Shown here in pieces: positions 4,165 through 54,033 of a stretch of 64,000 bases of DNA (its first letter is position 1; each line of letters starts with the position of its first letter). The translations under genes were made by a program, and so were the position numbers. Where the stretch lies: NCBI RefSeq assembly GCF_016887565.1, contig NZ_CP069396.1:372001-436000 (forward strand), read 5' to 3'. Under the pieces are notes generated by a model. That model saw only the letters and a list, made by a program, of their open reading frames with translations, was not told the origin of the DNA and did no database searches. This DNA comes from Archangium violaceum (GTDB taxonomy: Bacteria; Myxococcota; Myxococcia; Myxococcales; Myxococcaceae).

Positions 4165-4200
4165 CCCCTCTCCCTCTGGGAGAGGGACGGGGTGAGGGTA
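4165..4200 (+). repeat. Hairpin repeat R1 (CCCTCTCCC/GGGAGAGGG with GGGGTGAGGGT tail)
   Basis: First of five copies in this window. The arms CCCTCTCCC and GGGAGAGGG form a hairpin around a short loop (TCT), followed by a conserved unpaired tail ending GGGGTGAGGGT. It starts 13 bases after the stop of the gene at 3732-4151, in the same orientation as that gene. This could stabilise the mRNA 3' end or help terminate transcription. Confidence 0.75.
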
Positions 4201-4282
4201 TAGGGGGTGCCACATGGAGGACATTTCCCACACGCGCGCATTTGCCCTCCGACCCCTTCTCCCCCGAAAACACACCGCGCAC

Positions 4283-4304
4283 GACATGACCCGAGGGTCA
4301 TGTC
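4283..4304. promoter_or_regulatory. Perfect 22-bp palindrome, possible operator
   Basis: Arms GACATGACCC and GGGTCATGTC are exact reverse complements separated by two bases. The element lies in the 371-base gap (4152-4522) after the R1 repeat. It is about 220 bases upstream of the secreted NlpC/P60-like gene and 23 bases upstream of a weak reading frame at 4327. The size and near-zero spacer fit a homodimeric regulator site better than an RNA hairpin. No regulator gene adjoins it. Confidence 0.4.
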
Positions 4305-4326
4305 CTCACGCGCGAGGGGGAAGACG

Positions 4327-4650
4327 ATGGGGATTCCTCTGAAAAACCTGGGGGTCTTCCTGTTCACGGGGGGGCCGATGTGGGCCCTGGCCCAGGACGA
4401 GCGATTCCGCGCCTTTGCCCTGGCCGAGCCGCGAGAAGCAGCCTGGGGGACAGGCGGCCACGAGGAAGCGGGGGTCGAATCGTCGCCCGTGAATGCGCGG
4501 GGCGGTACGCTCGTCTCCTCGCATGATGCTTCGCAAGCTCCTGCTCCCATTGGTGCTCGGAGTGCTCGGTACGGCTCCGGCCGTCGCGGCACCTCGTGCG
4601 CCGGTGAAGGCCGCGGCGAAGTCGAAGAAGGCCGCCGCGCCCGCCGGTGA
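4327..4650 (+). other. Doubtful reading frame overlapping the NlpC/P60-like gene
   Basis: The ATG at 4327 has a good ribosome site (GAGGGGGAAGACG) and the first 25 residues look like a hydrophobic leader (LKNLGVFLFTGGPMWALAQ). The rest is low-complexity and overlaps the next gene, in another frame, by 128 bases. It could be a short leader peptide or decayed gene, or chance in GC-rich DNA. The remaining gap 4152-4522 otherwise holds only the R1 repeat and the 22-bp palindrome. Confidence 0.2.
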
Positions 4651-5245
4651 GGTCCAACGCTCGCGTGGCACGCGGGCCATCGCCAAGGCCACGCCCTCCA
4701 AGAAGAAGCGCCCGGCGGTCCGGCTCACCCGGGGGCGGCGCGTGGCCCGGCGCGCGAGCACCCTGGTGGGGCACTCGCTGGGCACGTACTCGCCCCGAGT
4801 CCCCGACGACTGCTCCGGCCTGGTGCGGCTGGCCTATCGGGCCGCGGGCATCGAGCTGCTGTCGCACGGCACGCTGCCCGGAGAGAACGCGGTGACCGCC
4901 ATCTACCGACGCGCGCAGCGCTCGGGGGCGCTGCACCGGCGGGCCCCGAAGCCGGGCGACATCGTCTTCTTCCGCGAGACGTATGACCGCAACCGCGACG
5001 GCCTGCGCAACGACGGGCTGACGCACGTGGGCGTCATCGAGTCCGTGGAGCGCGATGGCACCGTCGTCTTCGTGCACCGTGGGGGCAGTGGCGTGAAGCG
5101 CGCGCGGATGAACCTGCGCTTCCCCTCGCTGCGCCAGCAGGGGGGGCGCGTCCTCAACGACTACATCCGCCGGGCCGAGGGCGGCGAGCGCGCGCGGCTC
5201 ACCAGCGAGCTCTTCGGCGGCTACGCCTCGGCTTCCCGCCTGTAG
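4523..5245 (+). CDS. Secreted NlpC/P60-like (CHAP-type) cysteine peptidase
   Basis: A 240-residue exported protein, probably acting on peptidoglycan peptide bonds. A signal peptide is visible (MMLRKLLLPLVLGVLGTAPAVAA), followed by an Ala/Lys-rich basic linker to about residue 75. The peptidase-like core starts at DDCSGLVRLAYRAAGIE, where Cys in DDCSG is the expected nucleophile. The catalytic His fits LTHVGVIESVERDGT, and a GDIVFFRETYDRNRDGLRND segment precedes it. Start ATG 4523 (or 4526) gives the clean signal peptide; a frame extension to 4493 adds nothing family-like. It is monocistronic by spacing. Likely role: cell-wall remodelling or lysis in the periplasm. Confidence 0.75.
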   Translation: MMLRKLLLPLVLGVLGTAPAVAAPRAPVKAAAKSKKAAAPAGEVQRSRGTRAIAKATPSKKKRPAVRLTRGRRVARRASTLVGHSLGTYSPRVPDDCSGLVRLAYRAAGIELLSHGTLPGENAVTAIYRRAQRSGALHRRAPKPGDIVFFRETYDRNRDGLRNDGLTHVGVIESVERDGTVVFVHRGGSGVKRARMNLRFPSLRQQGGRVLNDYIRRAEGGERARLTSELFGGYASASRL

Positions 5246-5379
5246 GCCCGCGTGCCGGGCATGCTCCTGGCGCCGCTCGCCACCGACACTCCTCTGGATG
5301 CCCTACCCCGTGGGGCTGGAGGAATGAAGGGAGGGGGCGGTGTTGAACGTTTGGACAGACTTCCGGCCAGGGGGACCGG

Positions 5380-8007
5380 TTGAACGAAACGCGGGAGCAG
5401 ATGGGGCCATCCGTGGAGCGGTTGCTGCGACTCCAGCGGGTGACGAGTGAGCTGTCGCGGGCCCTCACGCCCTCCGAGGTGGCCAGCGTCATCGTCCTGC
5501 TCGCGGGTCCCACGTTGGGGGCGGCCGAGTGCTGCATCTATCTGCTGGAGCAGCCTGGAGTGCTGAGGCTCGTCGAGATGGACGGGGTGCCGCGCGTGGA
5601 GCTCGACCCCTGGCGCACCCTGCTGCTGGACGCGCCGCTCCCCATCACCGAGGCGGGGCGTACGAACGAGCCGGTCTGGGTCGAGTCGCTGGAGGCCCTC
5701 CGGCGCCGCTACCCGGTCGCGGACGGTGTGCCGCTGAGCCGGCGGCGGGCATGGGCCTGCCTGCCGCTTGGCGTGCCGGCGCGGGTACTGGGGGTGCTGG
5801 CGCTCGGCTTCGAGCACGAGCAGGGCTTCACGCGGGAGGACCAGGACTTCGCCTGCCTCGTGTCGAAGCAGTGCGCCTCGGCGGTCGAGCGCGCCCACCT
5901 CTATGAGCGCGAGCGCGAGCTGCGCGAGCAGGCCGAGCGGGCCCGGGCCGAGGCCGAGGAGCACCGCCGCCAGCTGGAACAGGAGCACCGGCGTCTCAAG
6001 GCCGTGCTCCAGCAGTTGCCCCAGGGCGTCCTCCTCGCCGAGGCGCCGAGCGGGCGGATCCTGATGGCCAATGAGCAGATGGAGCGGATCCATCGGCGTC
6101 CCGTGCCTCCCGACTGGGGACCCGAGCAGTACACGGCCTTCACCGGCTTCCATCCGGACGGGCGGCCCTACCTCCCGGACGAGTGGCCCCTGGTGCGTGC
6201 CCTCACCCGAGGAGAGGTGGTGCGGGGCGAGGTGCTGGACGTGTTGCGCGAGGACGGCTCCCGGCTCACCCTGGAGGTGAGCGCCGGGCCGGTGCGCGAC
6301 GCCGAGGGCCGGGTGACGGCCGCCGTGGCCGTCCTCGAGGACATCTCCGAGCGCCTGCGCCTGGAGCGGGCCGTGCACGAGGGCGAGGCCGTGTTCCGCC
6401 GCATCATGGCGTCCGACATGATGGGGCTGGCCTTCTCGGGCGAGGAAGGCCTCATCCAGGAGGCCAATGACGCCTTCCTGTCGCTCGTGGGCCATGACCG
6501 GGAGGAGGTGCGGCGGGGCGAGCTGTGCTGGCGGGAGCTGGTGCCGCCCGAGGGCCGGGAAGCCGAGGAGCGCGTGTTGCACGAGCTGGAGACGCACGGG
6601 GTGGCCGCCACCTTCGAGGCGGAGCTGCTGCGCGCGGATGGCAGCCGCGTCCCGGTGTTGACGGGCTCGGCGCGGGTGGAGGAGCAGGACCGCGTCCTCA
6701 CCTTCGTGATGGACCTGTCGGACCTCAAGCGCGCGGAAGGGGCGCTGCGCTTCCTGGCCATGACGGGCTACATCCTGGCCCAGACCCTGGAGGTCACCGA
6801 CGCCATCCTCCAGCACGTGGCCTGTCTGGCGAGCCTCTCGGTGGCCTCCTGGTGCGTCATCGACCTGGCCACGCCCGAGGGCCCGCTGCGCCGCGCGGCC
6901 GTGGCCCACCACGACCCCGAGCTGGAGGAGCGGCTGCGGAGGGCGTGGCCGGTGCCCTCGCCGCGAGACGCCGGGAGCCCGCCGTGGGAGGCGATGCACT
7001 CGGGTGAGCCGCTGCTCTTCGCGGACTTCGGCGCGGAGTCGTGGCGGCACCTGAGCCGGGGCGTGGTGCCCGCCGAGGCCATGGAGGACTGGGAGCGGTG
7101 CTCGGTGCTGATGGTGCCGCTGCGCTCGCGCGAGCGGGTGCTGGGCCTCATCACCCTGGGCTCCTGCGTCCCCAGGCGGCGCCATGGGCCGGAGGACATC
7201 GCCATGGGCCAGGAGCTGGCGCACCGCGTGACGGCCACGCTGGAGCGCTCGCAGCTCTTCCAGGACTCACAGCGGGCCGTGCGGCTGCGCGACGAGTTCC
7301 TCGCGGTGGCCTCGCACGAGCTGAAGACGCCGCTGACGCCCCTGCGGCTGCAACTGCAGGGATTGCGGCGGGTGGTGGAGACGCGGGCGGGGCAACCCGT
7401 GGCGCCCGAGCGCGTCCTCCGGGCCGTCCAGGGCTGCGAGGCCCAGGTGCGCAATCTGGCGGGGCTGGTGAATGACTTGTTGGACGTGTCGAGGCTGGCG
7501 CAGGGCCGGCTCCCGCTGCACCTGGAGGAGGTGGACCTGGTGGCCGTCACGCGGGACGTCCTGGAGCAGTTCTCCTCCGAGGCCACGCGCGCGGGTTGCC
7601 GGGTGGAGCTCGCGGCCGGAGCGCCGGTGGTGGGCCTGTGGGACCGGCTGCGGCTGGAGCAGGTGGTGACGAACCTGCTGACCAACGCCCTCAAGTACGG
7701 AGCGGGCCGGCCCATCCTCCTGCGCGTCTGGTCGGAGGAGGGAAGGGCGAGGCTGGGCGTGCGCGACGAGGGCATCGGCATCGCGCCGGAGCACCGCGGC
7801 CGCATCTTCGGCAAGTTCGAGCGCGCCGTGTCCGAGCGCCACTACGGCGGGCTGGGCCTGGGGCTCCACATCACGCGGCAGATCGTCCAGGCGTTCGGGG
7901 GCACCATCCGCGTGGAGAGCGAGCTGGGCCAGGGCTCCACCTTCACCGTGGAGCTGCCGCTCGGCGCCGAGGCCGCGCGGGGAGCGGGGCTCGATGGCAT
8001 CCGGTAG
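5380..8007 (+). CDS. Sensor histidine kinase, GAF-PAS-PAS-GAF-HisKA-HATPase
   Basis: An 875-residue soluble sensor kinase. Order: GAF-like domain (about 15-165), coiled coil (HLYERERELREQAERA..., about 170-205), PAS (about 208-325), PAS (about 335-450), second GAF (about 460-625), then HisKA with SHELKTPLTP (phospho-acceptor His646), and an HATPase with N box NLLTNALKYG, G1 DEGIGIAPEH and G2 GGLGLGLHI. It has no transmembrane segments, so it senses a cytoplasmic signal or is recruited to the membrane. The start is taken as TTG 5380 with GGGGACC upstream; ATG 5401 is an alternative. No response regulator adjoins it, making it an orphan kinase. A fragment of an aminotransferase follows in the same frame right after its stop. 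Confidence 0.9.
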   Translation: MNETREQMGPSVERLLRLQRVTSELSRALTPSEVASVIVLLAGPTLGAAECCIYLLEQPGVLRLVEMDGVPRVELDPWRTLLLDAPLPITEAGRTNEPVWVESLEALRRRYPVADGVPLSRRRAWACLPLGVPARVLGVLALGFEHEQGFTREDQDFACLVSKQCASAVERAHLYERERELREQAERARAEAEEHRRQLEQEHRRLKAVLQQLPQGVLLAEAPSGRILMANEQMERIHRRPVPPDWGPEQYTAFTGFHPDGRPYLPDEWPLVRALTRGEVVRGEVLDVLREDGSRLTLEVSAGPVRDAEGRVTAAVAVLEDISERLRLERAVHEGEAVFRRIMASDMMGLAFSGEEGLIQEANDAFLSLVGHDREEVRRGELCWRELVPPEGREAEERVLHELETHGVAATFEAELLRADGSRVPVLTGSARVEEQDRVLTFVMDLSDLKRAEGALRFLAMTGYILAQTLEVTDAILQHVACLASLSVASWCVIDLATPEGPLRRAAVAHHDPELEERLRRAWPVPSPRDAGSPPWEAMHSGEPLLFADFGAESWRHLSRGVVPAEAMEDWERCSVLMVPLRSRERVLGLITLGSCVPRRRHGPEDIAMGQELAHRVTATLERSQLFQDSQRAVRLRDEFLAVASHELKTPLTPLRLQLQGLRRVVETRAGQPVAPERVLRAVQGCEAQVRNLAGLVNDLLDVSRLAQGRLPLHLEEVDLVAVTRDVLEQFSSEATRAGCRVELAAGAPVVGLWDRLRLEQVVTNLLTNALKYGAGRPILLRVWSEEGRARLGVRDEGIGIAPEHRGRIFGKFERAVSERHYGGLGLGLHITRQIVQAFGGTIRVESELGQGSTFTVELPLGAEAARGAGLDGIR

Positions 8008-13063: not shown

Positions 13064-13873
13064 ATGCCGCGAGAGATTCCCATCGCCATCATCGAGCGCC
13101 CGGACGAGCCGGTGCTCATCGCCATCCCCATCCATTCGGGCAAGGAGCCCGAGACGGCCCGGCACCGCCATGCGCGGGGACAGCTGTTCTCCGTCGGCAG
13201 CGGGCTGATGGTGGTGCATACCGAGCGCGGCAACTGGCTCATGCCGCCGGGAATGGCCGGCTGGATTCCTCCCGGCATCTGGCACTCGGCGCACTGGCAC
13301 GGTCCGACGAGTGGCTGGAGCGTCTATGTCGCGGCCCCAGCCTGTGAAGGGCTGCCCAGGGAGGCCCGGGTCGTGAGGATGTCCCGGGTGTTGGAGGCCA
13401 TTGTCGAGCGCGCCACGGAGTGGGAGCCCGGCGCGCCGCTCGGCCCGGCCGAGGCCCGGCTGGCGGCGGTGGTGCTCGACGAGCTCCAGGTGGCGGAGGA
13501 GGAGCTGTCGCTGCGCCTGCCCATGCCGAGGGAGCGGCGGCTCGTCGCCATCGCCCGGGCGCTGCTCGCCGAGCCGGCCGATGCGCGAGGCGTGGGGGAG
13601 CTGGCCTCCTGGGCGGGCATCAGCGAGCGCTCCCTGACTCGCCACTTCAAGCAGGAGACGGGGATGACGTTCGTGCAGTGGCGGCAGCAGGCGAAGGTGG
13701 CGCGTGCCCTGGAGCTGCTGTCGGAGGGAGGGTCGGTCGGGGACGTGGCCTTCTCCCTGGGCTACGAGAGCGTGAGCGCGTTCATCGCCATGTTCAAGCG
13801 GTTCCTCGGCACGACCCCGGCCCAGTGCCTGGCGGGGCGGCGTGAACCAGAGGCGAGGGCCCGCCGCTTTTAG
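13064..13873 (+). CDS. AraC family transcriptional regulator with cupin sensor
   Basis: A 269-residue regulator. The N-terminal half is a cupin-type sensor (HRHARGQLFSVGSGLMVV, then PPGMAGWIPPGIWHSAHWHG). The C-terminal 100 residues are a double helix-turn-helix AraC domain: VGELASWAGISERSLTRHFKQETGM for the first, and VGDVAFSLGYESVSAFIAMFKRFLGTTP for the second, which carries the family signature. Start ATG 13064. It is transcribed divergently from the FAD monooxygenase and ends 12 bases before a GNAT gene, so it may regulate one or both. The sensor type suggests a small aromatic or antibiotic-like inducer, which cannot be named. Confidence 0.92.
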   Translation: MPREIPIAIIERPDEPVLIAIPIHSGKEPETARHRHARGQLFSVGSGLMVVHTERGNWLMPPGMAGWIPPGIWHSAHWHGPTSGWSVYVAAPACEGLPREARVVRMSRVLEAIVERATEWEPGAPLGPAEARLAAVVLDELQVAEEELSLRLPMPRERRLVAIARALLAEPADARGVGELASWAGISERSLTRHFKQETGMTFVQWRQQAKVARALELLSEGGSVGDVAFSLGYESVSAFIAMFKRFLGTTPAQCLAGRREPEARARRF

Positions 13874-13885
13874 TAGAAACACCGC

Positions 13886-14527
13886 ATGAGCACGCCCGCC
13901 ACGCCCGCCTTCACGAATCCTCCCTACCTCCTCCGCACGCCCCGGCTCCTGCTGCGCTGCATGGGTCCGGACGACGCCGCGCGCCGCAAGGAATCGGTGG
14001 ACTCCAGCGGGGAGCACCTGGAGCGCTTCTTCTCGCGCACTCCCGAGGAGCCCCTGTCGTTGGAGGCCCATGCCGCGCATATCCGGAAGCTCCGCGCGGG
14101 GTTCGATCTGGATCAGGACCGGGGCTACGGGGTCTTCGAGCCGGAGACCGAGAGGTTCCTGGGAGAGGTCAGTCTTCTCCGGCGCGCCGGCATCGACGCG
14201 CTCGAGATTGGCTACTGGCTCCGCCGCGACGCGGTCGGCCAGGGCTTCGCCACGGAGATGGCCTCGGCGGCGGTGAAGACCGCCTTCGAGCTCGACCGGG
14301 TGAAGCGCATGGACCTGATGTGCAAGCCGGAGAACGAGCGGAGCGCGGCGGTAGCGCGCCGGCTGGGCTTCACGTTCGAGGGGCGGCTGCGAGACAGACA
14401 GCTCGCGCCGCACCACCAGCGGGGTGACCTGCTGTGCTTCACCCTCCTGTCCACCGAATACCCGACGTCTCCAGCGAGCCGGCTCCCGCTCGAGGCGTTC
14501 GACTTCCTCGGACGGCGGCTCGCCTGA
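13886..14527 (+). CDS. GNAT family N-acetyltransferase (RimJ/RimL type)
   Basis: A 213-residue acetyltransferase. It opens with the RimJ/RimL signature LRTPRLLLRCMGPDDA and continues with YGVFEPETERFLGEVSLLRR. The acetyl-CoA binding motif A is at EIGYWLRRDAVGQGFATEM, and the C-terminal NERSAAVARRLGFTFEGRLRD is typical of enzymes modifying protein N-termini or small molecules. ATG 13886 lies 12 bases after the AraC gene, so co-transcription is likely. The acceptor substrate is unknown; detoxification of the same compound as the neighbouring monooxygenase is possible but unproven. Confidence 0.88.
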   Translation: MSTPATPAFTNPPYLLRTPRLLLRCMGPDDAARRKESVDSSGEHLERFFSRTPEEPLSLEAHAAHIRKLRAGFDLDQDRGYGVFEPETERFLGEVSLLRRAGIDALEIGYWLRRDAVGQGFATEMASAAVKTAFELDRVKRMDLMCKPENERSAAVARRLGFTFEGRLRDRQLAPHHQRGDLLCFTLLSTEYPTSPASRLPLEAFDFLGRRLA

Positions 14528-14870
14528 GTCCAGCTTCGTGTTCCTACCGCGCCGGGTCAGGCACAGCTCGGGCCGGAGGCGCCGTAGCTGGCGGTGGCGG
14601 CGATGCCCCCGAAGACCCAGCCGATAGAAGACGTCGCCCTGGAAGAGCTGGAAGGTGGGCTGGTTGCGGTGCAGGTCCACCGTCAGCTTCAGCGCGATGC
14701 CCTGGCCGCACGCCGCCCGGAAGGCCTCGTAGACGGGGGAGCCATTTCCGTCGAGCCACCGCGGGCCGTGGTTCCGGTCACGGTGCGGGCCGCGGTGGCC
14801 CACGCTCCGACGGCGCCCCACGAGCTGCGCGCGTTCGCGATGAAATAGCTCAGCTCATGAGAGGGCTCGC
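14528..14870 (-). pseudogene. Possible frameshifted remnant on the reverse strand
   Basis: These 343 bases lie between the GNAT gene and the ferritin-like gene and hold no intact gene. Reading the reverse strand, plausible protein segments occur in successive frames: HELSYFIANARSSWGAVGAWA (near 14860-14800), SPVYEAFRAACGQGIALKLTV and DLHRNQPTFQLFQGDVFYRL (near 14740-14625), then GWVFGGIAATASYGASGPSCA followed by a stop (near 14560). The switching of frames suggests a decayed small gene; I cannot name the family. It may also be chance in GC-rich DNA. Confidence 0.3.
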
Positions 14871-16025
14871 TCAGACAGGATGGGAGACGAACTGGAACGG
14901 CGGCGCGCAGTTCTTCTTGGTTTCAGGGTCGATGTGTTGAATCAGCCGGATGGCCAGCAGCCGCATCTCGTACATGATGCCGATGGTGCTGTTCAGCGCG
15001 TCCGGCTTGCCATTGAAGGTGTTGTCGAGCGCCTGCAACAGGCTGGAGTAGCTGCGGTTGAAGAGCTCCGCGTCGGTACGGGGCTGGGTGCCGGGAGCCC
15101 ATCGTTCGGCCTTGGCGTTGGGCACCAGGTCCCAGACTCCGAACGGGTCGAGCGGCACCGGTGCTCCGGCATAGGCATAGCCCTGGGTCGAGCCCGGCGT
15201 GGCGATCAGCCTGCGCCCGTAGAAGATCTCCGCGAAACGGTAGTAGTGCGCCAGCTGCTCGTGCTGGGCCTTGGGCAGGCTCTGGGGAGTGTCCTTGCCC
15301 CTGCCACGAGCCCAGATGACCTCGAGCACTTCCTTGCCGCCGGAATCGAACGGATCCTGGCGCGTGCCTTCACCCTGGACCCGGATGATCTCGAGCGCGG
15401 CGCATGCCTGCTCCGGGTTGGTCACGGCGAAGAGCACGGTCTCCGGGAACCACTGGGGATTGACCACCTGGGGAGAGCTCTTGACGAAGAGCTGCTTGCC
15501 CAGACGCGCGATCGCCTGGATCAACGCCTCGTAGAACTGGCCGATCGTGGCGAACTCCGGCGTGAAGGGCTCCGGTGCGACACCCTCCGGCGTGACGAGC
15601 TTCCGTGCGAAGGGCTTCACCGGGAAGTCATCGGGTGTCTCGGGCTCCTCGATCTTCATGAACACATTGCCGACCGTGTCGCGGGACAGCTTGTTCAGGC
15701 CGACCACGAGGCCGTCGCCGATGTTCATCGGCAGCGTGGTGGGGTAGTCCGGCACGAACTTCGGGTCGGCGATCCGCGGGTGTCCGCCAATGGCGTTCAA
15801 CACGTTGGCCGCGATGGCCATGTGGAGCATTTCCTGGATGGCGACCGAGCGGATGAGAGCCGCCACTTCCTGGTTCTGGCCGGGCCGGATCGAATAGAGC
15901 GCGGTCAGATAGGGAGGAATGGTGGCGTGCTCCAGCTCGATCGCCCGCTGCAGCAAGACGTGTAACTGCTCGGCGGTGGTGGCCTCGTTTGCCTTCTGGA
16001 TGTAGCTCGGATCGATTCTCAGCAT
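14871..16025 (-). CDS. Ferritin-like protein, counterpart of the VioB/RebD catalytic domain
   Basis: A 384-residue protein of the ferritin-like family found in VioB/RebD/StaD iminophenyl/indole-pyruvate dimer synthases. The hallmark helix pair is visible: AIELEHATIPPYLTALYSI (E32, H33) and IQEMLHMAIAANVLNAIGG (E65, H68), giving Glu/His ligands for a di-metal site, with a matching EQLAHYYRFAEIFYG helix later. ATG 16025. The gene 52 bases upstream encodes what looks like the VioB N-terminal half, so the two together correspond to one full-length VioB/RebD polypeptide. In those pathways the enzyme couples two imine molecules. No VioA, VioE or later tailoring gene is nearby, so the substrate here is unknown. 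Confidence 0.8.
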   Translation of the reverse strand: MLRIDPSYIQKANEATTAEQLHVLLQRAIELEHATIPPYLTALYSIRPGQNQEVAALIRSVAIQEMLHMAIAANVLNAIGGHPRIADPKFVPDYPTTLPMNIGDGLVVGLNKLSRDTVGNVFMKIEEPETPDDFPVKPFARKLVTPEGVAPEPFTPEFATIGQFYEALIQAIARLGKQLFVKSSPQVVNPQWFPETVLFAVTNPEQACAALEIIRVQGEGTRQDPFDSGGKEVLEVIWARGRGKDTPQSLPKAQHEQLAHYYRFAEIFYGRRLIATPGSTQGYAYAGAPVPLDPFGVWDLVPNAKAERWAPGTQPRTDAELFNRSYSSLLQALDNTFNGKPDALNSTIGIMYEMRLLAIRLIQHIDPETKKNCAPPFQFVSHPV

Positions 16026-26417: not shown

Positions 26418-27017
26418 ATGAGGAGCGAGTTCGCGGGCTGTCAGCAAGCCCGGTGGGTACCGCGCGCGGCGCATTTGGGGTTGCTGGTGGGAGGGCTGCT
26501 GCTGGTTCTGCCCGGCTGTAAGCAACCCAAGGAACCCAACGCCGGAGCGAAGCCGGGCGGAGCGCCTGAGCAGACCAACGAAACACCTCGACTGGACAAG
26601 AGGGTCTCGTTGACGCTCATCGGCTTCAACTACACGGATTTGTACATCGACAGCTTCTCTGTGAACGGACAGGGCGGGGGAAACATCTATGTCAGCTCCC
26701 CGACTTCCGGCGGCGGAGGAAGCGTGTGCTGTGTAGGCTTCTCGCCGAACAGCAAGCTGCCACTGCAAGTGAAGGTCAGGTGGACGCGGGATCGGCGGCG
26801 CTGGTGCGAGAAGGAGGTGCTGATCACGGGCCCCGTGCCGGCCTCACCCGAATACCTCGCGGTGCATTTCTTTCCCGACGGACGTATCGAGGGCGAAATC
26901 ACAGAGGAGTACCCAGAGGTGAAGCTTCAACTGCGAAACGTGGATGATGGTAGGCGCAAGGCCTCGGGGAACACCGTGGCGGATGAGCAGACGGCGAGGT
27001 GCCAGGATGGCTACTAA
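26418..27017 (+). CDS. DUF3304 lipoprotein, probable immunity partner of the Tle1-like effector
   Basis: A 199-residue lipoprotein. The start ATG 26418 has AGGGAGGGTTC upstream and was preferred to ATG 26394. A basic N-terminus and hydrophobic stretch end in the lipobox LPGC. The core LTLIGFNYTDLYIDSFSVNGQGGGN, then SGGGGSVCCVGFSP and WTRDRRRWCEKEV, is the DUF3304 pattern, often encoded beside type VI secretion phospholipase effectors. The gene overlaps the next one by 11 bases, so it is translationally coupled. Inferred role: periplasm-facing immunity protein protecting against the neighbour's phospholipase. Codon use is less G+C-biased than around it. Confidence 0.75.
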   Translation: MRSEFAGCQQARWVPRAAHLGLLVGGLLLVLPGCKQPKEPNAGAKPGGAPEQTNETPRLDKRVSLTLIGFNYTDLYIDSFSVNGQGGGNIYVSSPTSGGGGSVCCVGFSPNSKLPLQVKVRWTRDRRRWCEKEVLITGPVPASPEYLAVHFFPDGRIEGEITEEYPEVKLQLRNVDDGRRKASGNTVADEQTARCQDGY

Positions 27018-28893
27018 AAAGCTGGTGGCTCGGAAGCACCCAGCCCTGAAGCAGTCTCAGGACGCGCTGCGCCGCTCGGCGGAGCTCGCGGACGTGACGA
27101 CCCAAGGGACCGCGCCTGTGCCCATCGTTTCGGGTGAGAGAGCCAGTGTCCCCTCCAACGCCACGCGCTCCACGGGCCCGCAGGATCTCTGGCTCACCTT
27201 CTTCTTTGACGGTACCGGCAACAACCTGGACGCAGATCAGGGAAACAACGAGCACAGCAACGTGGCGCGGTTGTACCTGGCTCATCAACGAGAAGACCCG
27301 TCGAACGGAATATTCCGTATCTACATCCCCGGCATTGGCACGCTCTTCAAGGAGATCGGTGACCCCGGTGGGGGGATCATCGGTCCCGGCTTCGGCGGAC
27401 GGGGCGAGGCGCGTCTGCAGTGGGCGATGAAACGGCTGGAGACGCACGTCAAGAAGGCGGACAGCAAGGTTCGCGTTCATGTGGCGCTGTTCGGCTTCTC
27501 GCGCGGGGCCACGTTGGCACGCGCTTTCGCCCTGCGGATCGCCGCGCGCTGCAAGAAGAAGGACTGGATCTATCACTTCATGCCGGGAGGCCAGCCCATC
27601 AGCGTGTACTTCATGGGGCTGTTCGACACCGTGGCCTCGGTCGGCATGGCGATGAGCGCGAACAATGGTGGGGCAATCGGTGCACTCAGTGCGCGGACCG
27701 CGATGGGGCTTCGTTACGATCTCACCCATCCGAATTCGCCCTGGCGCATCGCGGGAGGCGAGGAGCCAGGGGCGGATCCCGCATCGGGTTCGCGCCATGG
27801 CCATGAGGCCTGGGCGAAGGACCTGCGCATCCACCCGATCGTGGAGCAGTGTGTCCACCTGGTGGCTGCTCATGAGATCCGCAACTCCTTCCCGCTCGAC
27901 AGTGTCCTGGATGGATTCTTCTACCCGGACAACTGCTTCGAGATCGTCCTTCCCGGAGTCCACTCGGATGTGGGCGGAGGCTACCGTCAGGGTGAAGGAG
28001 CGCGAAGCTCGATGCTGAGCCTCATCCCGCTGCGGATGATGCATGACACGGCCAGCATGGCGGGAGTCCCCCTGATCCAGAGATTCAGCACGGAGCAACA
28101 ACTGAAAGACTTCGGGCTGGACGCGGGCGGCTCGAAGCGCTTCGGGACGCTCCTGGCTCGTTTCAATCACTACATGAAGGCGGTGGACTGCGCGAGCGAT
28201 GCTGGGTTGGGGCGCAAGGTCCTGGCCCACATGAAGCTCTACTATCGATGGCGGTTCTACAAGATCGCTCGTGACCTGAAGGCGCGTCTGGCTGGGCGCC
28301 CCACGCAAGACGAGAGCCGTCTACACGCTTCCGAACCACGCTGGGCCGCGGAGAAGAAGAAACAGGCTGCCCGAATGGAGGCGCTGAAGAACGAGGAGAT
28401 GAAGCAACGGGCAGCGGCGGGAATGTTCATGGGTCCCGGCATGGGTCCGGCGATGCTTCTCAAAAGCCAGGCCGACAGCATGGCGGAGTTCCTCAAGCTC
28501 GCGGAGCAGAAGAAGGACGAGTATCTCGTGGTCAAATCCATCCACGACACCATCCCGAGCTCGGATGGATCGTTGGCGAAGAATCTGAGCCTCTACGATG
28601 ACCAGCTCATGGCGGATGCTTGCATGCTCAAGCTCCTGTCCAAGGTCAGGAAGCTTCGCCCGCATTACCGGGCGCTGCTCGAGGCTTTCGAGGACGAGTT
28701 CGACCACGGCAAAGGGTTGCGCGACGAGATGATCATCGGATTCTTCGATGACCATGTTCATGACTCGCTGGCCGGATTCGCCGGTGACGCGACGCTGCCT
28801 TCCGACCCTCGCGTCATCTACCGGGGAGGGGACAGCAAGATGCGTTACGCCGTGAATCAGTCCGCGAAGACCTCGGTCTCCGAGCTCGCCTGA
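27007..28893 (+). CDS. Tle1-like phospholipase effector (DUF2235, T6SS lipase family)
   Basis: A 628-residue protein beginning with the DUF2235 hydrolase fold: FFFDGTGNNLD (63-73), the nucleophile elbow GFSRGA with Ser165, MGLFDTVASVG (Asp207) and VLPGVHSDVGGGY (His319, Asp321). This GxSxG-Asp-His set is that of Tle1 type VI effectors with phospholipase A2 activity. From about 440 onward there is a Lys/Glu/Met-rich helical region and no second catalytic motif. ATG 27007 overlaps the DUF3304 gene by 11 bases. No type VI core, VgrG or PAAR gene is in the window, so this is an orphan effector module. Target: bacterial membrane phospholipids. Confidence 0.85.
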   Translation: MATKKLVARKHPALKQSQDALRRSAELADVTTQGTAPVPIVSGERASVPSNATRSTGPQDLWLTFFFDGTGNNLDADQGNNEHSNVARLYLAHQREDPSNGIFRIYIPGIGTLFKEIGDPGGGIIGPGFGGRGEARLQWAMKRLETHVKKADSKVRVHVALFGFSRGATLARAFALRIAARCKKKDWIYHFMPGGQPISVYFMGLFDTVASVGMAMSANNGGAIGALSARTAMGLRYDLTHPNSPWRIAGGEEPGADPASGSRHGHEAWAKDLRIHPIVEQCVHLVAAHEIRNSFPLDSVLDGFFYPDNCFEIVLPGVHSDVGGGYRQGEGARSSMLSLIPLRMMHDTASMAGVPLIQRFSTEQQLKDFGLDAGGSKRFGTLLARFNHYMKAVDCASDAGLGRKVLAHMKLYYRWRFYKIARDLKARLAGRPTQDESRLHASEPRWAAEKKKQAARMEALKNEEMKQRAAAGMFMGPGMGPAMLLKSQADSMAEFLKLAEQKKDEYLVVKSIHDTIPSSDGSLAKNLSLYDDQLMADACMLKLLSKVRKLRPHYRALLEAFEDEFDHGKGLRDEMIIGFFDDHVHDSLAGFAGDATLPSDPRVIYRGGDSKMRYAVNQSAKTSVSELA

Positions 28894-32346: not shown

Positions 32347-32437
32347 GCCATGCCTTGCCGGGACGCGTCAGGCACGGGACACTGACGGTGAATCGACGTG
32401 CCGTCCAGTACGGGTTGTCCAGCGGGTGGAGCTGCAA

Positions 32438-34834
32438 ATGGGTGAAGGTTCAAAGGTGCGCGCGCCGCGAGGTCTCGGAGTCTTCTTCGCCGCAGTGGTG
32501 CTGCTGTTCTCGGTGGAGACCTGGGCGCAGGGGGCGGGCAAGGGCGGGTCTCTCGTCTTCCGCGGGCTCGACGAGCAGCCGCTCCGGTTGCAGCTCGACT
32601 CCGCTCAGCTCGACCACAAGCTGTTCATCGACGAGACGGGCAACGTCCAGGTCGACAAGGCCCAGCTGCTCGTCTCCGACTTCAAGGACGAGTCGGGGGT
32701 GACGGCCTACCCCGTGCAGGTCATGACGGCGGATGGGAGCAAGGAGCTCGACGAGTTCTCCCTCGCGCCGATGAAGTCCCAGGCCGTCCGGCTCGTGACG
32801 GACATCGTCACTCCGGGCACCTACACGGCCACGCTCTCGCTCGTCTACGGCGGAGCCCCTCATGCCACCACGCAGATAGTGGTGACCCGCCCGCGCCCGG
32901 CGCTCAACGTCGAGCTCGACGAGGTGGTGGCGCGCGGTGACGCCGATGTCCGCGAGTACCGGAGCTCGGCCGTGGTCGACCTCGTCCTGCGCGAGAAGGA
33001 CGGCCGGCCCGTCAAGCTCTACCCCCCGACGCTCGCGAAGCTGACCCTCAAGAGCGGCTCGGCTCCCGTCGTGTTCCAGACCTCGGCCCGGGTGGAGCTC
33101 GCGGGCGCCGGGGACACGCACGGCGATGCGCCCTCGCTGCTGCTCGACCGGAGGCAGACGAAGCCGCTGCGGCTCATGCTCTCCGAGCTGCGCGGGGCGG
33201 GCCAGTACGAGGGCACCCTGCGCATCGCCTCGGCGGATGCGCCGCCCGTGGAGAAGACCTTCACGCTCTACCTGCGCGAGCCCTTCTGGGTCGCGCTCGC
33301 GCTCATCGCGTTCGGCGTCATCGTGTCCTTCTTCGTCCGCGTGTACCTGACGAAGGAGCGCCCGCGGCTGGTGCTCCAGCACCGGGTGCTGGGTCTGGCC
33401 CAGGCCCTGGAGGCGATGAAGGCGTCCGCCGATGCCCAGGGTCGCGAGCTGGCCCAGGCCCTCCAGCAGCTCGTCACCCTGGCCTCCCAGGGGCTCTCGG
33501 CCTTCACGGTGAACATCACCGCCGAGCAGGTGGAGCTGCTCGAGCGCAAGGTGTCCTGTGCCCGTGACTGGCTGCGGCTGCGGCGCTCCGTCGACGAGAT
33601 GCACCCGGAGAGCCTGCGGAGCGGGCCCCTGGCGAAGCTCGCGGACGTGGAGCGGCTGCTGCGCCACCCGGGCACCACCGGGGCCCAGCTGGAGACCGCC
33701 GAGGCCACGCTGTCGAACCTCCCCGGGGAGATGGAGGCGGCGATGCGCCAGCACCTCACCGAGCGGCTCGAGTCCTTCAACAAGGAGCTGAGCGCGACGA
33801 TGGCGACGAGGGACCCCTTCGCCGCCACGACCAAGAAGCTGGAGCAGCGGGTGAAGCCGTTGCTGGAGCAGGCGAGCGCCCAGGTGACGAAGGACCTGCG
33901 CGCGGCCTTCGCGGCGTTCGACGAGGCGCGAGCGGCCCTGGCCTCGCTCCTGGCGGACGAGCTGAGCGCGTCGCTGGCGGGGCCGGCTCCGACCTTCCTC
34001 ACCGCGCCCGAGTGGAGCGAGCTCAAGGCGCAGGTGGAGGTCTTCCTGGCGCCGCTGCGGCAGTTGCTGGCGCCCTCGGCGGAGGCGGCGGTGACGGCCT
34101 ACGAGAACGGCCTGTCCTTCTACCTGCGCACGGTGGGGCGGGCGCTGTACGACGCGGCGGGCAAGCAGCTCCAGGCCCTGGGCGAGGGGCAGACGCAGCA
34201 GAAGGAGCGGGTGGAGCGCGCACGGACGGGCGCCGAGAGCTGCCTGCGGCTGCTCGGGGAGCGGAAGCTCTCCGAGTCCCTGCGCGTGCTGGGCGAGGCC
34301 CGGAAGGACTTCGCGTCCGCGAACGTCCCGTCCACGGGCATGCGGATGGGAGGCACCCAGACCTCGACGTCGGCACCGGCCCAGGCGCAGCCGCCTCAAG
34401 GCCCGAGCCCGATTCCCGAGTGGCTGGTGGACAACGTGGCGCTGCGCCTGCCGCGGCTCGAGGGACGCGCCCCGGCCGAGGGTCTGGCCATGCTGGAGAA
34501 GTGGCTCCGCTTCGCGGACGGAGTCATCCTGGTCATCATGTTGGGGGTGGCCTCCGTCGCGGGCCTCAAGTTGCTCTGGCAGGACAATCCGACGTGGGGC
34601 GGTATGAATGACCGGCTCCTCGCCCTGCTGTGGGGCTTCGGCTTCCACCAGGTCTCCTACTTCGCCGGGCTCGGCGGACTGCTCGAGCGCATCCTCAAGG
34701 CCACGCCCACGGCGGCGCTCACCTCGGGTCAGGCGGCAGCGCCCGCCCAGGAGCCTGCGCCTGCCCCCGCGCCCGCGCCTGCTCCTGCTCCCGTGCCGCC
34801 TCCGCTGCCTGGGGGACAGACTCCGGTGAAGTGA
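32438..34834 (+). CDS. Membrane protein with Ig-like ectodomain and long coiled coil, partner of the CHAT protease
   Basis: A 798-residue protein I cannot name. ATG 32438 follows GGAGCTGCAA; GTG 32426 is possible. A signal peptide (LGVFFAAVVLLFSVETWAQG) leads to a 250-residue beta-rich region with repeated sandwich patterns (EFSLAPMKSQAVRLVTDIVTPGTYTATLSLVYGG), probably outside the inner membrane. A transmembrane helix at about 283-303 (FWVALALIAFGVIVSFFVRVYL) is followed by 350 residues of charged helices and coiled coil, then a linker, two more membrane helices at about 700-745 (FADGVILVIMLGVASVAGLKLL; LLALLWGFGFHQVSYFAGLG), and an Ala/Pro repeat tail. It ends four bases before the CHAT gene, implying a common function, perhaps as receptor, anchor or substrate. 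Confidence 0.7.
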   Translation: MGEGSKVRAPRGLGVFFAAVVLLFSVETWAQGAGKGGSLVFRGLDEQPLRLQLDSAQLDHKLFIDETGNVQVDKAQLLVSDFKDESGVTAYPVQVMTADGSKELDEFSLAPMKSQAVRLVTDIVTPGTYTATLSLVYGGAPHATTQIVVTRPRPALNVELDEVVARGDADVREYRSSAVVDLVLREKDGRPVKLYPPTLAKLTLKSGSAPVVFQTSARVELAGAGDTHGDAPSLLLDRRQTKPLRLMLSELRGAGQYEGTLRIASADAPPVEKTFTLYLREPFWVALALIAFGVIVSFFVRVYLTKERPRLVLQHRVLGLAQALEAMKASADAQGRELAQALQQLVTLASQGLSAFTVNITAEQVELLERKVSCARDWLRLRRSVDEMHPESLRSGPLAKLADVERLLRHPGTTGAQLETAEATLSNLPGEMEAAMRQHLTERLESFNKELSATMATRDPFAATTKKLEQRVKPLLEQASAQVTKDLRAAFAAFDEARAALASLLADELSASLAGPAPTFLTAPEWSELKAQVEVFLAPLRQLLAPSAEAAVTAYENGLSFYLRTVGRALYDAAGKQLQALGEGQTQQKERVERARTGAESCLRLLGERKLSESLRVLGEARKDFASANVPSTGMRMGGTQTSTSAPAQAQPPQGPSPIPEWLVDNVALRLPRLEGRAPAEGLAMLEKWLRFADGVILVIMLGVASVAGLKLLWQDNPTWGGMNDRLLALLWGFGFHQVSYFAGLGGLLERILKATPTAALTSGQAAAPAQEPAPAPAPAPAPAPVPPPLPGGQTPVK

Positions 34835-34838
34835 AGCC

Positions 34839-37800
34839 ATGGGCGCCACCCGGTACCACCGTAGCGACCTGCGCATCGTCTTCCGGCCACGCGAGGACGG
34901 TGGGTTCGTGGCCCGGGTTCGGGTGGGGCGCGAGCTCCGGGAGTACGGCTTCGAGCCACGGACCGCCGCACTCTGGGGCAGGGGGCTCCCCTCGGCCCTC
35001 GAGCTCTCCCTGGCGCTCGGGCTCGACGAGGCGCTCGAGTCGCTCGTGGCCGCAGATTCCGAGGCGCGCCTCTTGGACGAGACGGGGACGTCGCGGTTCC
35101 TGCCGCGGGTGGTCCTCGACATCCAGGATGCGCGCCTGGCCTCCATCGACTGGGAGACCCCGCTACGGGAGTGGATGCCGGACGTCCAGGTCGTCCGGGC
35201 CTCGCCGGTGCGTCCCCGGGCCGAGCGCATCCCGCTCACGCTGCCGCTGCGAATCGTCGAGGTTGGTGGAGGCCCCAGACGCGCGCCCCGGACCCAGCGT
35301 CCCGGCATCGTCCGAGAGCTGGTGTCCCAGGTGTTCCGCGCGACCACCGGATGGGAGCGGGCCGTGGAGGTGGGGCGGTGCGAGACACCGGAGTCGCTCG
35401 CCAGCTTCCGCGAGGACTCGGGCTGGCGCACCGCGGAGGTGCTGCACTTCCAGGGGCAGCCTCGCATCGCGAGGGAACTGACGAGCGTCTTGAGCACGGC
35501 CTCGCCCGACGAGCCCGGGACGCTGGGCTGGCTGCTGCGGCTCACCGACTCGTGGCAGACGCGGCTGGTGGTCATCGAGGACGACAGCTGGCCCGGCGTG
35601 CTGCTCCGCCGCCTCGCCCAGGCCCTGGTGGAGCGTGGGGGGCCGGCGGTGCTGCTCGCGCTGAGAGCCTCGGGCGACTGGCGCCAGCGGCTCTACGAGG
35701 GGCTCGTCCACGACATGCCGCTCGACGCCATCCGGCAGGAGCCTGGCCTGTCCCTCTTCGTGGGAGCGGGGCGGGAGGAACTGCTCCGGGTCTCCTCCAT
35801 CGCGGAGTCGTTGACCAGGCCCGAGGTGGCGGAGGATCTCGTTCGGGAGCTGGAGGCGCGCAACCGCATCGAGCCCCGAGCCCTGCCCGGGCTGCGCAGG
35901 ATGCTCGAACGCATGAAGGGCCAGCTGGACGGGTGGGTGTTCGACCAGCACGAGCGCGAGGGGGTGCTTCCGCTGTCCCAGGAGCTGGCGTCCCTTCGTG
36001 GCCGTCTCAAGGTGCCCAGGCTTTCCACGCCCGGGAGTTGGAGCCTGGAGAGCTTCCTGGGGCCCGAAACGAGTCCCGAGTCACCGCGGCACGTCAACGC
36101 TCTCCTCCACGAGGAGGGCGCCGATGGCCGGCCACGGCTCCTCGCTCCGGGCCCCACGCGGCTGACACCGGGGGAGGTGGTCCACCTGGGCGTGCAGCTC
36201 GGCCCGCGCGACGAGCTCGTCCGGAACATCGGCACGAGCGCGCTGCTGGAGGAGGCGCTGCACTGGACGGTGGGCGCCGAGGGCCTGTTCTTGGAGGTGG
36301 GGGTGACCGGGATGGACTTCGATGTCCTGGGAGACCCGGTCCAGGAGCTGTGGTTGCCGAGGACGGGCGCGAGTGACGCCGTCTTCTTCGCCCTCACTCC
36401 GCGCGCGGACACGCGCATCGAGGGCGTGGCGCGGCTGCGCCTGTGCCTCTACCAGAAGGGCAACCTCGTGCAGTCGTTCCGGCTCGCGGCGCTCGTGCGG
36501 CGGCCGGGCGAGGAGGAGCCGGACAGGAACGAGCGCGCCCGGCGGCTGGCGTGCGCGCTCGATGTCGACGTGGCGCAGGTGCTCCAGGCGGGGGACGTCG
36601 GTTACCTGACGCGGCTGGAGTACGGCGCGGGCGGAGCGCTGTGGTCGCTGCCGGCGCTACCGCCCCGCGCGCTGAGCTTCACCGTCAACCAGAGCGCCGG
36701 CCAGGAGGTGGTCACCGTCAAGGGCCAGGACCTCTTCGAGGTGCGGGTCGGCGGCAACCTGGCGGACGTGGTGCGCCGGTTGCGCGACGCGCTCACCTCC
36801 GCCTCGACGGACGCGGCCGGCAACTACCGCTTCATTCATCAGGAGCGGCCCAACCAGGGAGACCCCGCGCACTTCGACACGGTGATGCGGGAGCTGGCCC
36901 GGCACGGTTGGGACCTCTTCACGCAACTCGTCCCCACGAACAAGGCGCGCGCGCGGGTGGGCTCGGCGCTCGAGGCCGACTTCCAGGTCATCCACGCGGC
37001 GCACGTGCACCTGGAGAATGTCATCCCCTGGGCGCTCGTCTACGACCGGTACTACGACGCCGACAACCAGGGTGATGCGCATGCCACCTGCCTGGCCGCG
37101 CTCCCGGGGGCCGATGGCGCGCCCGGGGCCCGGGAGTGCGGGGAGCACCCGTCGTGCCCGCTCCACCCGAGCCGCGTGGCCGAGGGCTATTCGGAAGACA
37201 CCGTGGTCTGCCCGCGCCACTTCTGGGGCTTCCGGCACATCGTGGAGGTGCCGCCCGAGCAGGTGCGGGGGTTGGAGGAGATTCCACCCGAGCCGGCCTC
37301 CGCGGTTGCCTGCTCTCGGCCCGTCCAGCTCGTCCTGGGGCAGCACGGGGGCCTCCTCCTGGCGAGCACCCACGCCGAGGAGCTCGAGGTGGCCCTTCGC
37401 GCCACGCCTCTGCCCGCGGTCATCGCGCGCGCGGCGGACCGCGACAGCCTGTTGAAGACCCTCAAGGTGGAGCCCCCACCGGACATCGTCTACCTCTACT
37501 GCCACGCGCGCGCCCAGGGGCAGCCGGGGGACGACGCACGCGCGCCGAAGGAGCCCCATCTGGAGCTCGGTCCCCAGGGGAAGCTGGGGTGGATCACCGC
37601 TTCCCAGGTGGTGGGACCGGAGTGGCCGCACAGGCCGCTCGTCTTCCTGAACGGATGTGGCACGGCCGCCTTCGACGCGACGCAGCCGGCGCAGCTCATC
37701 CTCAACCTGATGGCGCGCGGAGCCGGAGGGGTCATCGGGACGGAGGTGACCATCTGGGAGGCGCTCGCCGCCGAGGTGGCCCTGCGGTTCTTCAAGGCGT

Positions 37801-37934
37801 TCCTCGGCCAGCGTCCGGCCGGCGAGGCGCTCCTCGTCGCGCGCCGCGCGCTCCTGGGAAAGTACAACCCGCTGGGGCTCGTCTACACGCTCTACGGGCA
37901 CGCGGAGTTGAAGCTGCGCCCAGGAACATCCTGA
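34839..37934 (+). CDS. CHAT-domain caspase-like protease
   Basis: A 1031-residue protein ending in a catalytic CHAT domain. The dyad is visible as DIVYLYCHARAQ (His889) and PLVFLNGCGTAAFD (Cys940), followed by the family pattern GAGGVIGTEVTIWEALAAEVALRFFKAFLGQRPAGEALL and GLVYTLYGHAELKL. Before it is a cysteine cluster (ECGEHPSCPLHPS, VVCPRHFWGFRHIVE) typical of this CHAT subclass. The N-terminal third (about 60-340) has a CHAT-like layout without the dyad (VLHFQGQPRI, RLVVIEDDSWPG, GGPAVLLALRASGDW), suggesting a degenerate second copy. A beta-rich domain lies between. Its start is four bases after the membrane partner's stop. It probably cleaves that partner or another target upon a signal. 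Confidence 0.8.
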   Translation: MGATRYHRSDLRIVFRPREDGGFVARVRVGRELREYGFEPRTAALWGRGLPSALELSLALGLDEALESLVAADSEARLLDETGTSRFLPRVVLDIQDARLASIDWETPLREWMPDVQVVRASPVRPRAERIPLTLPLRIVEVGGGPRRAPRTQRPGIVRELVSQVFRATTGWERAVEVGRCETPESLASFREDSGWRTAEVLHFQGQPRIARELTSVLSTASPDEPGTLGWLLRLTDSWQTRLVVIEDDSWPGVLLRRLAQALVERGGPAVLLALRASGDWRQRLYEGLVHDMPLDAIRQEPGLSLFVGAGREELLRVSSIAESLTRPEVAEDLVRELEARNRIEPRALPGLRRMLERMKGQLDGWVFDQHEREGVLPLSQELASLRGRLKVPRLSTPGSWSLESFLGPETSPESPRHVNALLHEEGADGRPRLLAPGPTRLTPGEVVHLGVQLGPRDELVRNIGTSALLEEALHWTVGAEGLFLEVGVTGMDFDVLGDPVQELWLPRTGASDAVFFALTPRADTRIEGVARLRLCLYQKGNLVQSFRLAALVRRPGEEEPDRNERARRLACALDVDVAQVLQAGDVGYLTRLEYGAGGALWSLPALPPRALSFTVNQSAGQEVVTVKGQDLFEVRVGGNLADVVRRLRDALTSASTDAAGNYRFIHQERPNQGDPAHFDTVMRELARHGWDLFTQLVPTNKARARVGSALEADFQVIHAAHVHLENVIPWALVYDRYYDADNQGDAHATCLAALPGADGAPGARECGEHPSCPLHPSRVAEGYSEDTVVCPRHFWGFRHIVEVPPEQVRGLEEIPPEPASAVACSRPVQLVLGQHGGLLLASTHAEELEVALRATPLPAVIARAADRDSLLKTLKVEPPPDIVYLYCHARAQGQPGDDARAPKEPHLELGPQGKLGWITASQVVGPEWPHRPLVFLNGCGTAAFDATQPAQLILNLMARGAGGVIGTEVTIWEALAAEVALRFFKAFLGQRPAGEALLVARRALLGKYNPLGLVYTLYGHAELKLRPGTS

Positions 37935-37980
37935 GGGAGCCTGCTTCGGAGCCACATCTTCTGGATGACCCTTTCGATGT

Positions 37981-38009
37981 GGCCCCCGTCGAGTCGGAGT
38001 CAGGGGGCC
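37981..38009 (+). terminator. Possible stem-loop terminator after the CHAT gene
   Basis: A GC-only stem GGCCCCC (37981-37987) pairs with GGGGGCC (38003-38009) around a 15-base loop, 46 bases after the CHAT stop. There is no T-run, as is common in very GC-rich genomes, so termination is only a suggestion. The remaining gap to 38176 shows nothing else I can identify. Confidence 0.35.
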
Positions 38010-38176
38010 GAGAGGGAACGCCCGGGCCTCCGCTCGGGCTGCGAGGCAACGTCCCGGACGTGGTGGAAAAAGGGGGCTCCTCGCGGTGACCGGAGGTGGT
38101 TACCGGCGGTGGCGAGGTGCACCCTTGCTGGTAGAGGCCGCTGACAGGCGTGGCGGTCCTGCACAGGGGGTGCATC

Positions 38177-45718: not shown

Positions 45719-47608
<1,890 letters not shown>

Positions 47609-50283: not shown

Positions 50284-50287
<4 letters not shown>
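48674..50287 (-). CDS. FAD-binding oxidase, alkylglycerone-phosphate synthase-like
   Basis: A 537-residue vanillyl-alcohol-oxidase-fold protein. The N-terminus (SIWGWGYADKF) and FAD-binding segments (IPFGGGTSVVRGVE, FSTLGGWIATRAGGH, LVLGSEGTLGVITEAWVRV) are complete, and the C-terminal GTITHHHAVGRLHRPWY has the HHH motif of alkyl-DHAP synthases. Those enzymes make ether lipids by replacing an acyl with an alkyl chain. In myxobacteria such lipids signal during development, so this gene may belong there. ATG 50287 overlaps the kinase stop by 4 bases (ATGA), so translation is coupled to the upstream kinase. A close relative in the same fold (lactate or glycolate oxidase) is less likely because of the HHH motif. 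Confidence 0.85.
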
Positions 50288-53976
<3,689 letters not shown>

Positions 53977-54033
53977 GCGGGGCGGAGCATGGCAGAACCC
54001 GCGGGGCCACCTCAAATCAACCGCCGGGAGACG

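Follow-up and report, generated by a model that had tools for sequence, protein, structure and literature searches.

A CHAT protease gene beside a multi-span membrane protein gene in Archangium violaceum: a candidate membrane-controlled protease switch

The CHAT systems characterised so far, Craspase among them, respond to signals within the cell, and the trigger of gasdermin-linked proteases is, to our knowledge, largely open. Bacterial gasdermins are cleaved near their C-terminus by neighbouring caspase-like proteases (PMC9612521). In the EACC1-caspase pairs ("System 4" of Kaur et al. 2020), it has been proposed that membrane sensing activates the protease (PMC7159879). The pair described here comes from a 64,000-nucleotide stretch of the Archangium violaceum genome (NZ_CP069396.1, positions 372,001 to 436,000; "the window"). 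It associates a CHAT cysteine protease with a multi-span membrane protein (the "partner") and looks like an undescribed membrane-controlled protease switch, close to the arrangement proposed for the EACC1-caspase pairs.

Both genes lie on the forward strand, separated by exactly 4 bases as read in the first-pass annotation, and both are strongly coding (GC3 of 0.93 for the partner ORF and 0.92 for the CHAT ORF; Table 1). An upstream in-frame GTG at 32426 would lengthen the partner by 4 codons. The host genome (13.2 Mb, single contig) belongs to the same genus-level group as genome G047, and no close paralogue of either gene was found in it. The pair is flanked by moeA and mobA on the left and by a 198-aa gene and a short-chain dehydrogenase (SDR) gene on the right. 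The right-hand genes are placed outside the unit because they also follow the partner in the sister genome G045, from which CHAT is absent. These immediate neighbours are housekeeping or ordinary metabolic genes, and the defence island that the first-pass annotation had proposed to look for is not found in the window, the PADLOC hits being generic Ser/Thr kinases more than 7 kb away. PADLOC models give no match with the CHAT protease (P0001) and a sole match with the partner (P0002), to DpdH (E 0.037), which places it in no defence model. No gRAMP (Cas7-11) or CRISPR occurs near the pair, the nearest annotated neighbours being moeA, mobA, SDR and others. Elsewhere in the window, two genes (45719-47608 and 50284-54015) match kinase models, with PADLOC PD-T4-6 hits resembling generic Ser/Thr kinase hits, and a Tle1-like phospholipase with a catalytic domain of the T6SS effector type is encoded at 26944-28893.

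Table 1. Features of the gene pair, in window coordinates
Feature	Position	Strand	Basis or remark
Partner membrane protein gene	32438..34834	+	798 aa from ATG 32438; stop 34834
Signal peptide, hydrophobic core	32477..32524	+	Sequence; signal-peptide-like N-terminus in homologues
Predicted periplasmic ectodomain, two Ig-like β-sandwich domains (PapD/ASH-like, sialidase-Ig-like)	32534..33277	+	AlphaFold model, VIA-align
TM helix 1, then RVYLTKERPR	33278..33355	+	Sequence and model
Predicted cytosolic helical bundle/coiled-coil region	33356..34324	+	AlphaFold helices 333-629, pLDDT mostly 75-90
Disordered Pro/Gln/Ala-rich linker	34325..34495	+	pLDDT about 30, model residues 630-689
C-terminal TM hairpin, model residues 679-744	34496..34696	+	Motif LLW..(N)PTWGG....ALLWGFG.HQ
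CHAT cysteine protease gene	34839..37934	+	1031 aa; ATG at 34839
N-terminal domain, residues 84-335	35088..35843	+	Limited to the three full-length pair proteases
Middle β-rich domain, residues ~470-555	36246..36503	+	Profile matches E 1e-11 to 1e-3
Cys-rich insert in CHAT domain: C751, C767, C773, C791-PRHFWGFRH	37089..37229	+	Clade signature
Predicted catalytic His889 (YLYCHA)	37503..37505	+	Conservation in homologues
Predicted catalytic Cys940 (FLNGCGT)	37656..37658	+	Conservation in homologues
Stretch cleanly missing from G045	34839..38023		Flanks collinear, about 92.5-93% DNA identity

From its N- to its C-terminus, the partner is predicted to carry a signal peptide, a β-rich ectodomain, a first TM helix, an extended helical region in the cytosol, and a terminal TM hairpin. 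The β-rich ectodomain, the coiled coil, and the three spans (besides the signal peptide) recognised in the first-pass annotation are recovered in an AlphaFold model built from 3 sequences (mean pLDDT 66) and in the hydropathy of homologues. The two β-sandwich domains occupy model residues about 37-153 and 155-280. The first is PapD/ASH-like (VIA-align with CEP192 ASH: Z 9.3, rmsd 3.0, 106 aligned residues) and the second resembles a sialidase Ig-like domain (Z 9.0, rmsd 2.5, 97 aligned residues). Such matches of modelled domains reflect a common fold and imply no function. Foldseek also returned Ig-like and ciliary central-apparatus domains with low TM-scores; the ciliary likeness was not adopted, and only the Ig-like fold of the ectodomain is kept. 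The part following TM helix 1 is assigned to the cytosol because of the positive charge pattern of RVYLTKERPR (positive inside). As a candidate site of cleavage, the linker is probably the most exposed stretch. Conservation within the partner family is highest in the TM hairpin, where W724, G725, G726, W736, G737, and Q742 are invariant in 8 homologues. At E up to 1, the partner matches neither the gasdermin family PF04598 nor any Pfam entry named EACC1.

Pfam PF12770 identifies the CHAT domain over residues 846-1007, with a score of 40.1 bits (cut-off 24) and an E of 3.9e-10. The dyad reported as intact in the first-pass annotation, His889 and Cys940, is found at these positions and is invariant across three full-length homologues; the protein is predicted, by profile and dyad, to be a cysteine protease. 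The N-terminal third is present only in the proteins of the window, of Myxococcus sp. RHSTA-1-4 (L023), and of a Deltaproteobacteria MAG (L022). It had been likened to a CHAT domain devoid of its dyad, a reading set aside for want of profile support: searches with its profile place no CHAT ahead of shuffled sequences (E 0.48 for the best CHAT, E 0.26 for a shuffled sequence), and the profile-profile probability with CHAT is below 1%. The AlphaFold model of the protease (pLDDT 43, 4 sequences) is too poor for judging the fold, and a PDB sequence search with the protease gives no match. The middle β-rich domain is common to relatives from G050, Streptomyces, Calothrix, and Rhodococcus. The Cys-rich insert follows the first CHAT strand (VIPWALVYD) and precedes the core, ends in CPRHFWGFRH, and probably forms a structural zinc site. 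Pfam searches detect no TPR repeats in the CHAT protein and no effector-associated domain (EAD) in either protein of the pair.

This insert, C..C..C..CPxxFWG, marks a clade of CHATs. CPxxFWG with two or three earlier Cys recurs in nearly all relatives examined (Calothrix, Rhodococcus, Streptomyces, Nocardia, Vitiosangium), and the C-terminal profile has no significant match among the canonical CHATs of the same genome. The first-pass comparison with gasdermin-cutting proteases finds an echo in this clade: at locus L025, a CHAT with the Cys insert, aligning over residues 641-1026, lies 44 bp downstream of a gasdermin gene. The 266-aa product (L025/G047) matches PDB ID 7n51 with an E of 5.4e-147, an entry that we take to be the crystallised Vitiosangium bacterial gasdermin. 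Clade CHATs of Nocardia (L024) and Streptomyces (L133) carry N-terminal TM helices, and a small protein with 2-3 TM helices is encoded beside the CHAT at L129, L130, L151, and L152 (Rhodococcus, Streptomyces, and two further actinobacteria), with none at L150 and L132. The position and orientation of these small actinobacterial proteins vary (9719-10039 in L129, 9619-10128 in L130, and near the CHATs of L151 and L152). The CHAT clade is therefore repeatedly tied to membranes, by a gasdermin neighbour, by TM helices, or by a small TM neighbour.

The pair recurs beyond Archangium. Full-length CHAT and partner are found in Myxococcus sp. RHSTA-1-4 (55% and 36% identity, 3-base gap) and in the Deltaproteobacteria MAG (best segments 38% and 27% identical, genes again 3 bases apart), so that the genes are 3-4 bases apart in all three genomes, in a genomic setting that differs in each. 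In the MAG, a patatin-like phospholipase lies upstream of the pair and a site-specific recombinase downstream (4178-5887 and 13600-14937), which suggests a mobile setting. A plasmid of Calothrix sp. PCC 7716 shows the reverse order, the CHAT gene preceding that of a 560-aa partner homologue (E 2.9e-11 among 717 sequences with an HMM of about 50 Myxococcota partners). This homologue is too distant for tblastn, with which a plasmid search using the partner gives no match. In a tree of CHAT C-termini, the Calothrix CHAT falls together with its three myxobacterial counterparts, with moderate support (83/82), and all four CHATs of this closest group adjoin a partner homologue, in three genomic settings and one reverse order. 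In G050 (L026), a CHAT gene is followed by that of a 700-aa protein with a signal peptide, β, TM, helical, and TM regions. It resembles the pair and is not counted, its HMM score being below significance (best profile-profile E 1.7e-5, probability 79%, over the ectodomain). Viral contigs yielded no relative of either protein.

The association is, however, asymmetric, and judged against the refuting condition of the first-pass annotation, a pair that is not conserved as such, the outcome is mixed. A partner stands beside every full-length-type CHAT found, whereas most partners have another protease. Partner homologues, all of one family among the matches listed, occur in at least 54 of 195 Myxococcota genomes by profile search and are widespread in large-genome Myxococcaceae-type genomes; few candidates were scored per genome, so that presence counts are lower bounds and absence is no proof. 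ORFs in the related loci were called by a simple GC3-based caller and checked by tblastn. Among the 54 partner loci read, 42 carry two α-2-macroglobulin (A2M)-like genes, one for the N-half and one for the C-half, directly upstream of an EAD1-trypsin gene, itself followed by the partner; this recurrent four-gene operon with split A2M-like genes is seen at L039 (718-11009) and about 41 similar loci of Myxococcaceae-type genomes. A search of a paper library for α-2-macroglobulin and EAD1-trypsin together returned nothing. In one EAD1-trypsin protein, the His, Asp, and Ser motifs are as expected for a trypsin (NSHV, LDYAF, and GSSGSP). None of 36 such proteins has an N-terminal hydrophobic segment or a signal peptide, and therefore action at the cytosolic face is expected of both types of protease. 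Within the partner family, EAD1 is confined to loci of the trypsin type.

Other peptidases are associated with the same family. At L115 (7494-14164) and L117 (2922-9640), the partner leads a tight operon of MoxR/AAA ATPase, vWA-like, and CHAT/caspase-like genes, and at L107 (7299-10579) a divergent C25-like gene and a CHAT-CarboxypepD gene adjoin a partner homologue. Genome G108 holds both one CHAT-type and one trypsin-type locus. No recognised protease lies beside the partner in G045 and at some other loci (L038, L098, L099, L116), where the partner may have another role. A divergent homologue (L118, 6531-8504; HMM E 3.8e-20) is followed by an RCC1-repeat protein, with no protease seen nearby. 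Only a small minority of the partner genes at the loci read adjoin a CHAT. The partner thus belongs to a separate and broader family than the CHAT, in a pattern where one component is constant and the peptidase varies. The view of a dedicated protease-membrane unit is supported by its recurrence in other species and phyla and in both gene orders; obligate partnership is not, given the EAD1-trypsin loci and G045.

G045, of the same genus, offers a ready comparison: a sister species in which the partner is intact and the CHAT is naturally missing. The locus itself, when read, retains no trace of the CHAT (Table 1), and the presence of the pair in two outgroups makes loss more likely than gain. 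Compared with that of the window, the G045 partner shows an overall identity of 88%, with 95% in the ectodomain, 73% in TM helix 1, and 87% in the hairpin; among 97 family pairs of similar divergence, this excess of ectodomain over hairpin identity is the most extreme. Its dN/dS is 0.43, compared with 0.20-0.24 for three neighbouring genes and 0.41 for a fourth. At the differing sites of the hairpin and TM helix 1, the window copy is nearer the family consensus and the G045 copy has drifted. This drift, in one orthologue pair and with mostly conservative I/L/V changes, is suggestive of, and consistent with, a relaxed constraint on the coupling parts after loss of the protease.

The pair is read here as a membrane-anchored protease switch, in which the partner would pass a signal from the envelope to a cytosolic protease that can be exchanged for another. 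This reading draws on the recurrent linkage of the pair, on the association of one partner family with unrelated proteases (EAD1-trypsin, AAA/vWA with caspase-like, and C25-like with CHAT), on the membrane ties of the CHAT clade, and on the drift of the G045 partner. We give this reading roughly even chances. The partner would reside in the inner membrane with its two Ig-like domains in the periplasm, where an envelope event would be sensed by these domains or by a bound ligand or protein. TM helix 1 and the hairpin at the C-terminus would carry the signal across to the helical region in the cytosol; this region would hold the CHAT next to the membrane and release or activate it. The active CHAT might cut a cytosolic or membrane target, the simplest being the exposed linker of the partner or the CHAT itself, after which the cell could stop growing or die. 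Each of these steps, from sensing and physical contact to activation, target, and outcome, is conjectural, and a role in defence or programmed death is suggested by analogy with relatives. Partners with no recognised protease nearby fit this switch poorly, as do the ordinary metabolic neighbours in the window and the viral contigs devoid of relatives.

The partner might instead be the executioner, the CHAT cutting its linker or tail and thereby freeing the TM hairpin or the helical domain to make the membrane permeable, much as bacterial gasdermins are released by CHAT/caspase-like proteases. The same-clade CHAT lying next to the Vitiosangium gasdermin gene, the conserved hairpin just behind a disordered linker, and the cleavage of bacterial gasdermins near their C-terminus by neighbouring caspase-like proteases (PMC9612521) point in this direction. 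Yet the partner has no gasdermin similarity, a pore former needs no large structured ectodomain, and one fixed cleavage logic is hard to square with CHAT, trypsin, and caspase-like associates, which makes this explanation fairly unlikely.

We also consider it unlikely that the system serves envelope maintenance rather than death. In that case a protease would govern the response to damage in the periplasm or to foreign proteases, and the A2M-like proteins, where present, would form the periplasmic arm. The A2M-like genes upstream of EAD1-trypsin and partner at 42 of 54 loci, and the wide distribution of the partner in large genomes, would fit this role, but the CHAT-type loci are without A2M genes and the pair is patchy and losable, unlike housekeeping functions. 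Moreover, proposed conflict systems are where EAD1 and caspase-like domains are otherwise typically encountered (PMC7159879, PMC8195603). That the linkage is incidental, the CHAT being a separate effector that lies by chance behind a membrane protein serving another role, appears very improbable: G045 keeps its partner without a CHAT and few partner genes adjoin one, but the adjacency in four of four closest-group CHATs, across different settings and both orders, argues against chance proximity.

Carried further, the membrane switch would make the partner an undescribed constant membrane component of multicellular bacteria serving at least three protease types (CHAT, EAD1-trypsin, and AAA/vWA with a caspase-like protease), a receptor carrying an envelope signal to a death protease and functionally comparable to the pairing of death receptors and caspases. 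This extension is tentative and rather doubtful. If true, CHAT, trypsin, and caspase-like proteases would share one transmembrane partner with a periplasmic domain, and the path by which an envelope signal reaches a protease in the cytosol could be put to the test.

Compared with described systems, the pair shares with TPR-CHAT (Csx29) of the type III-E CRISPR Craspase a CHAT protease with a dedicated partner, although it lacks TPR repeats and its partner is a membrane protein instead of an RNA-guided one. As in the Vitiosangium gasdermin-CHAT operon (7n51), a CHAT of the Cys-insert clade with an intact dyad is encoded beside a membrane-acting protein; here, however, the neighbour is a multi-span membrane protein and not a gasdermin, and the protease has an extra N-terminal domain. 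In the EAD1-trypsin conflict systems of Kaur and Aravind, a partner homologue lies directly downstream of the EAD1-trypsin gene at most loci, whereas the window has a CHAT in place of EAD1-trypsin; the available parts of PMC7159879 and PMC8195603 contain no mention of α-2-macroglobulin genes in these systems. With the EACC1-caspase pairs, the locus shares a 5' membrane-protein gene and a 3' gene for a protease of the caspase superfamily (CHAT, caspase-like clan), a constant membrane component, a proposed membrane sensing, and an occurrence in multicellular bacteria. EACC1, however, is a small single-TM domain, in contrast to the signal peptide, Ig-like ectodomain, helical region, and TM hairpin of the partner, and in the present family it is the class of the protease that varies (CHAT, trypsin, caspase-like), with no variable C-terminal effector.
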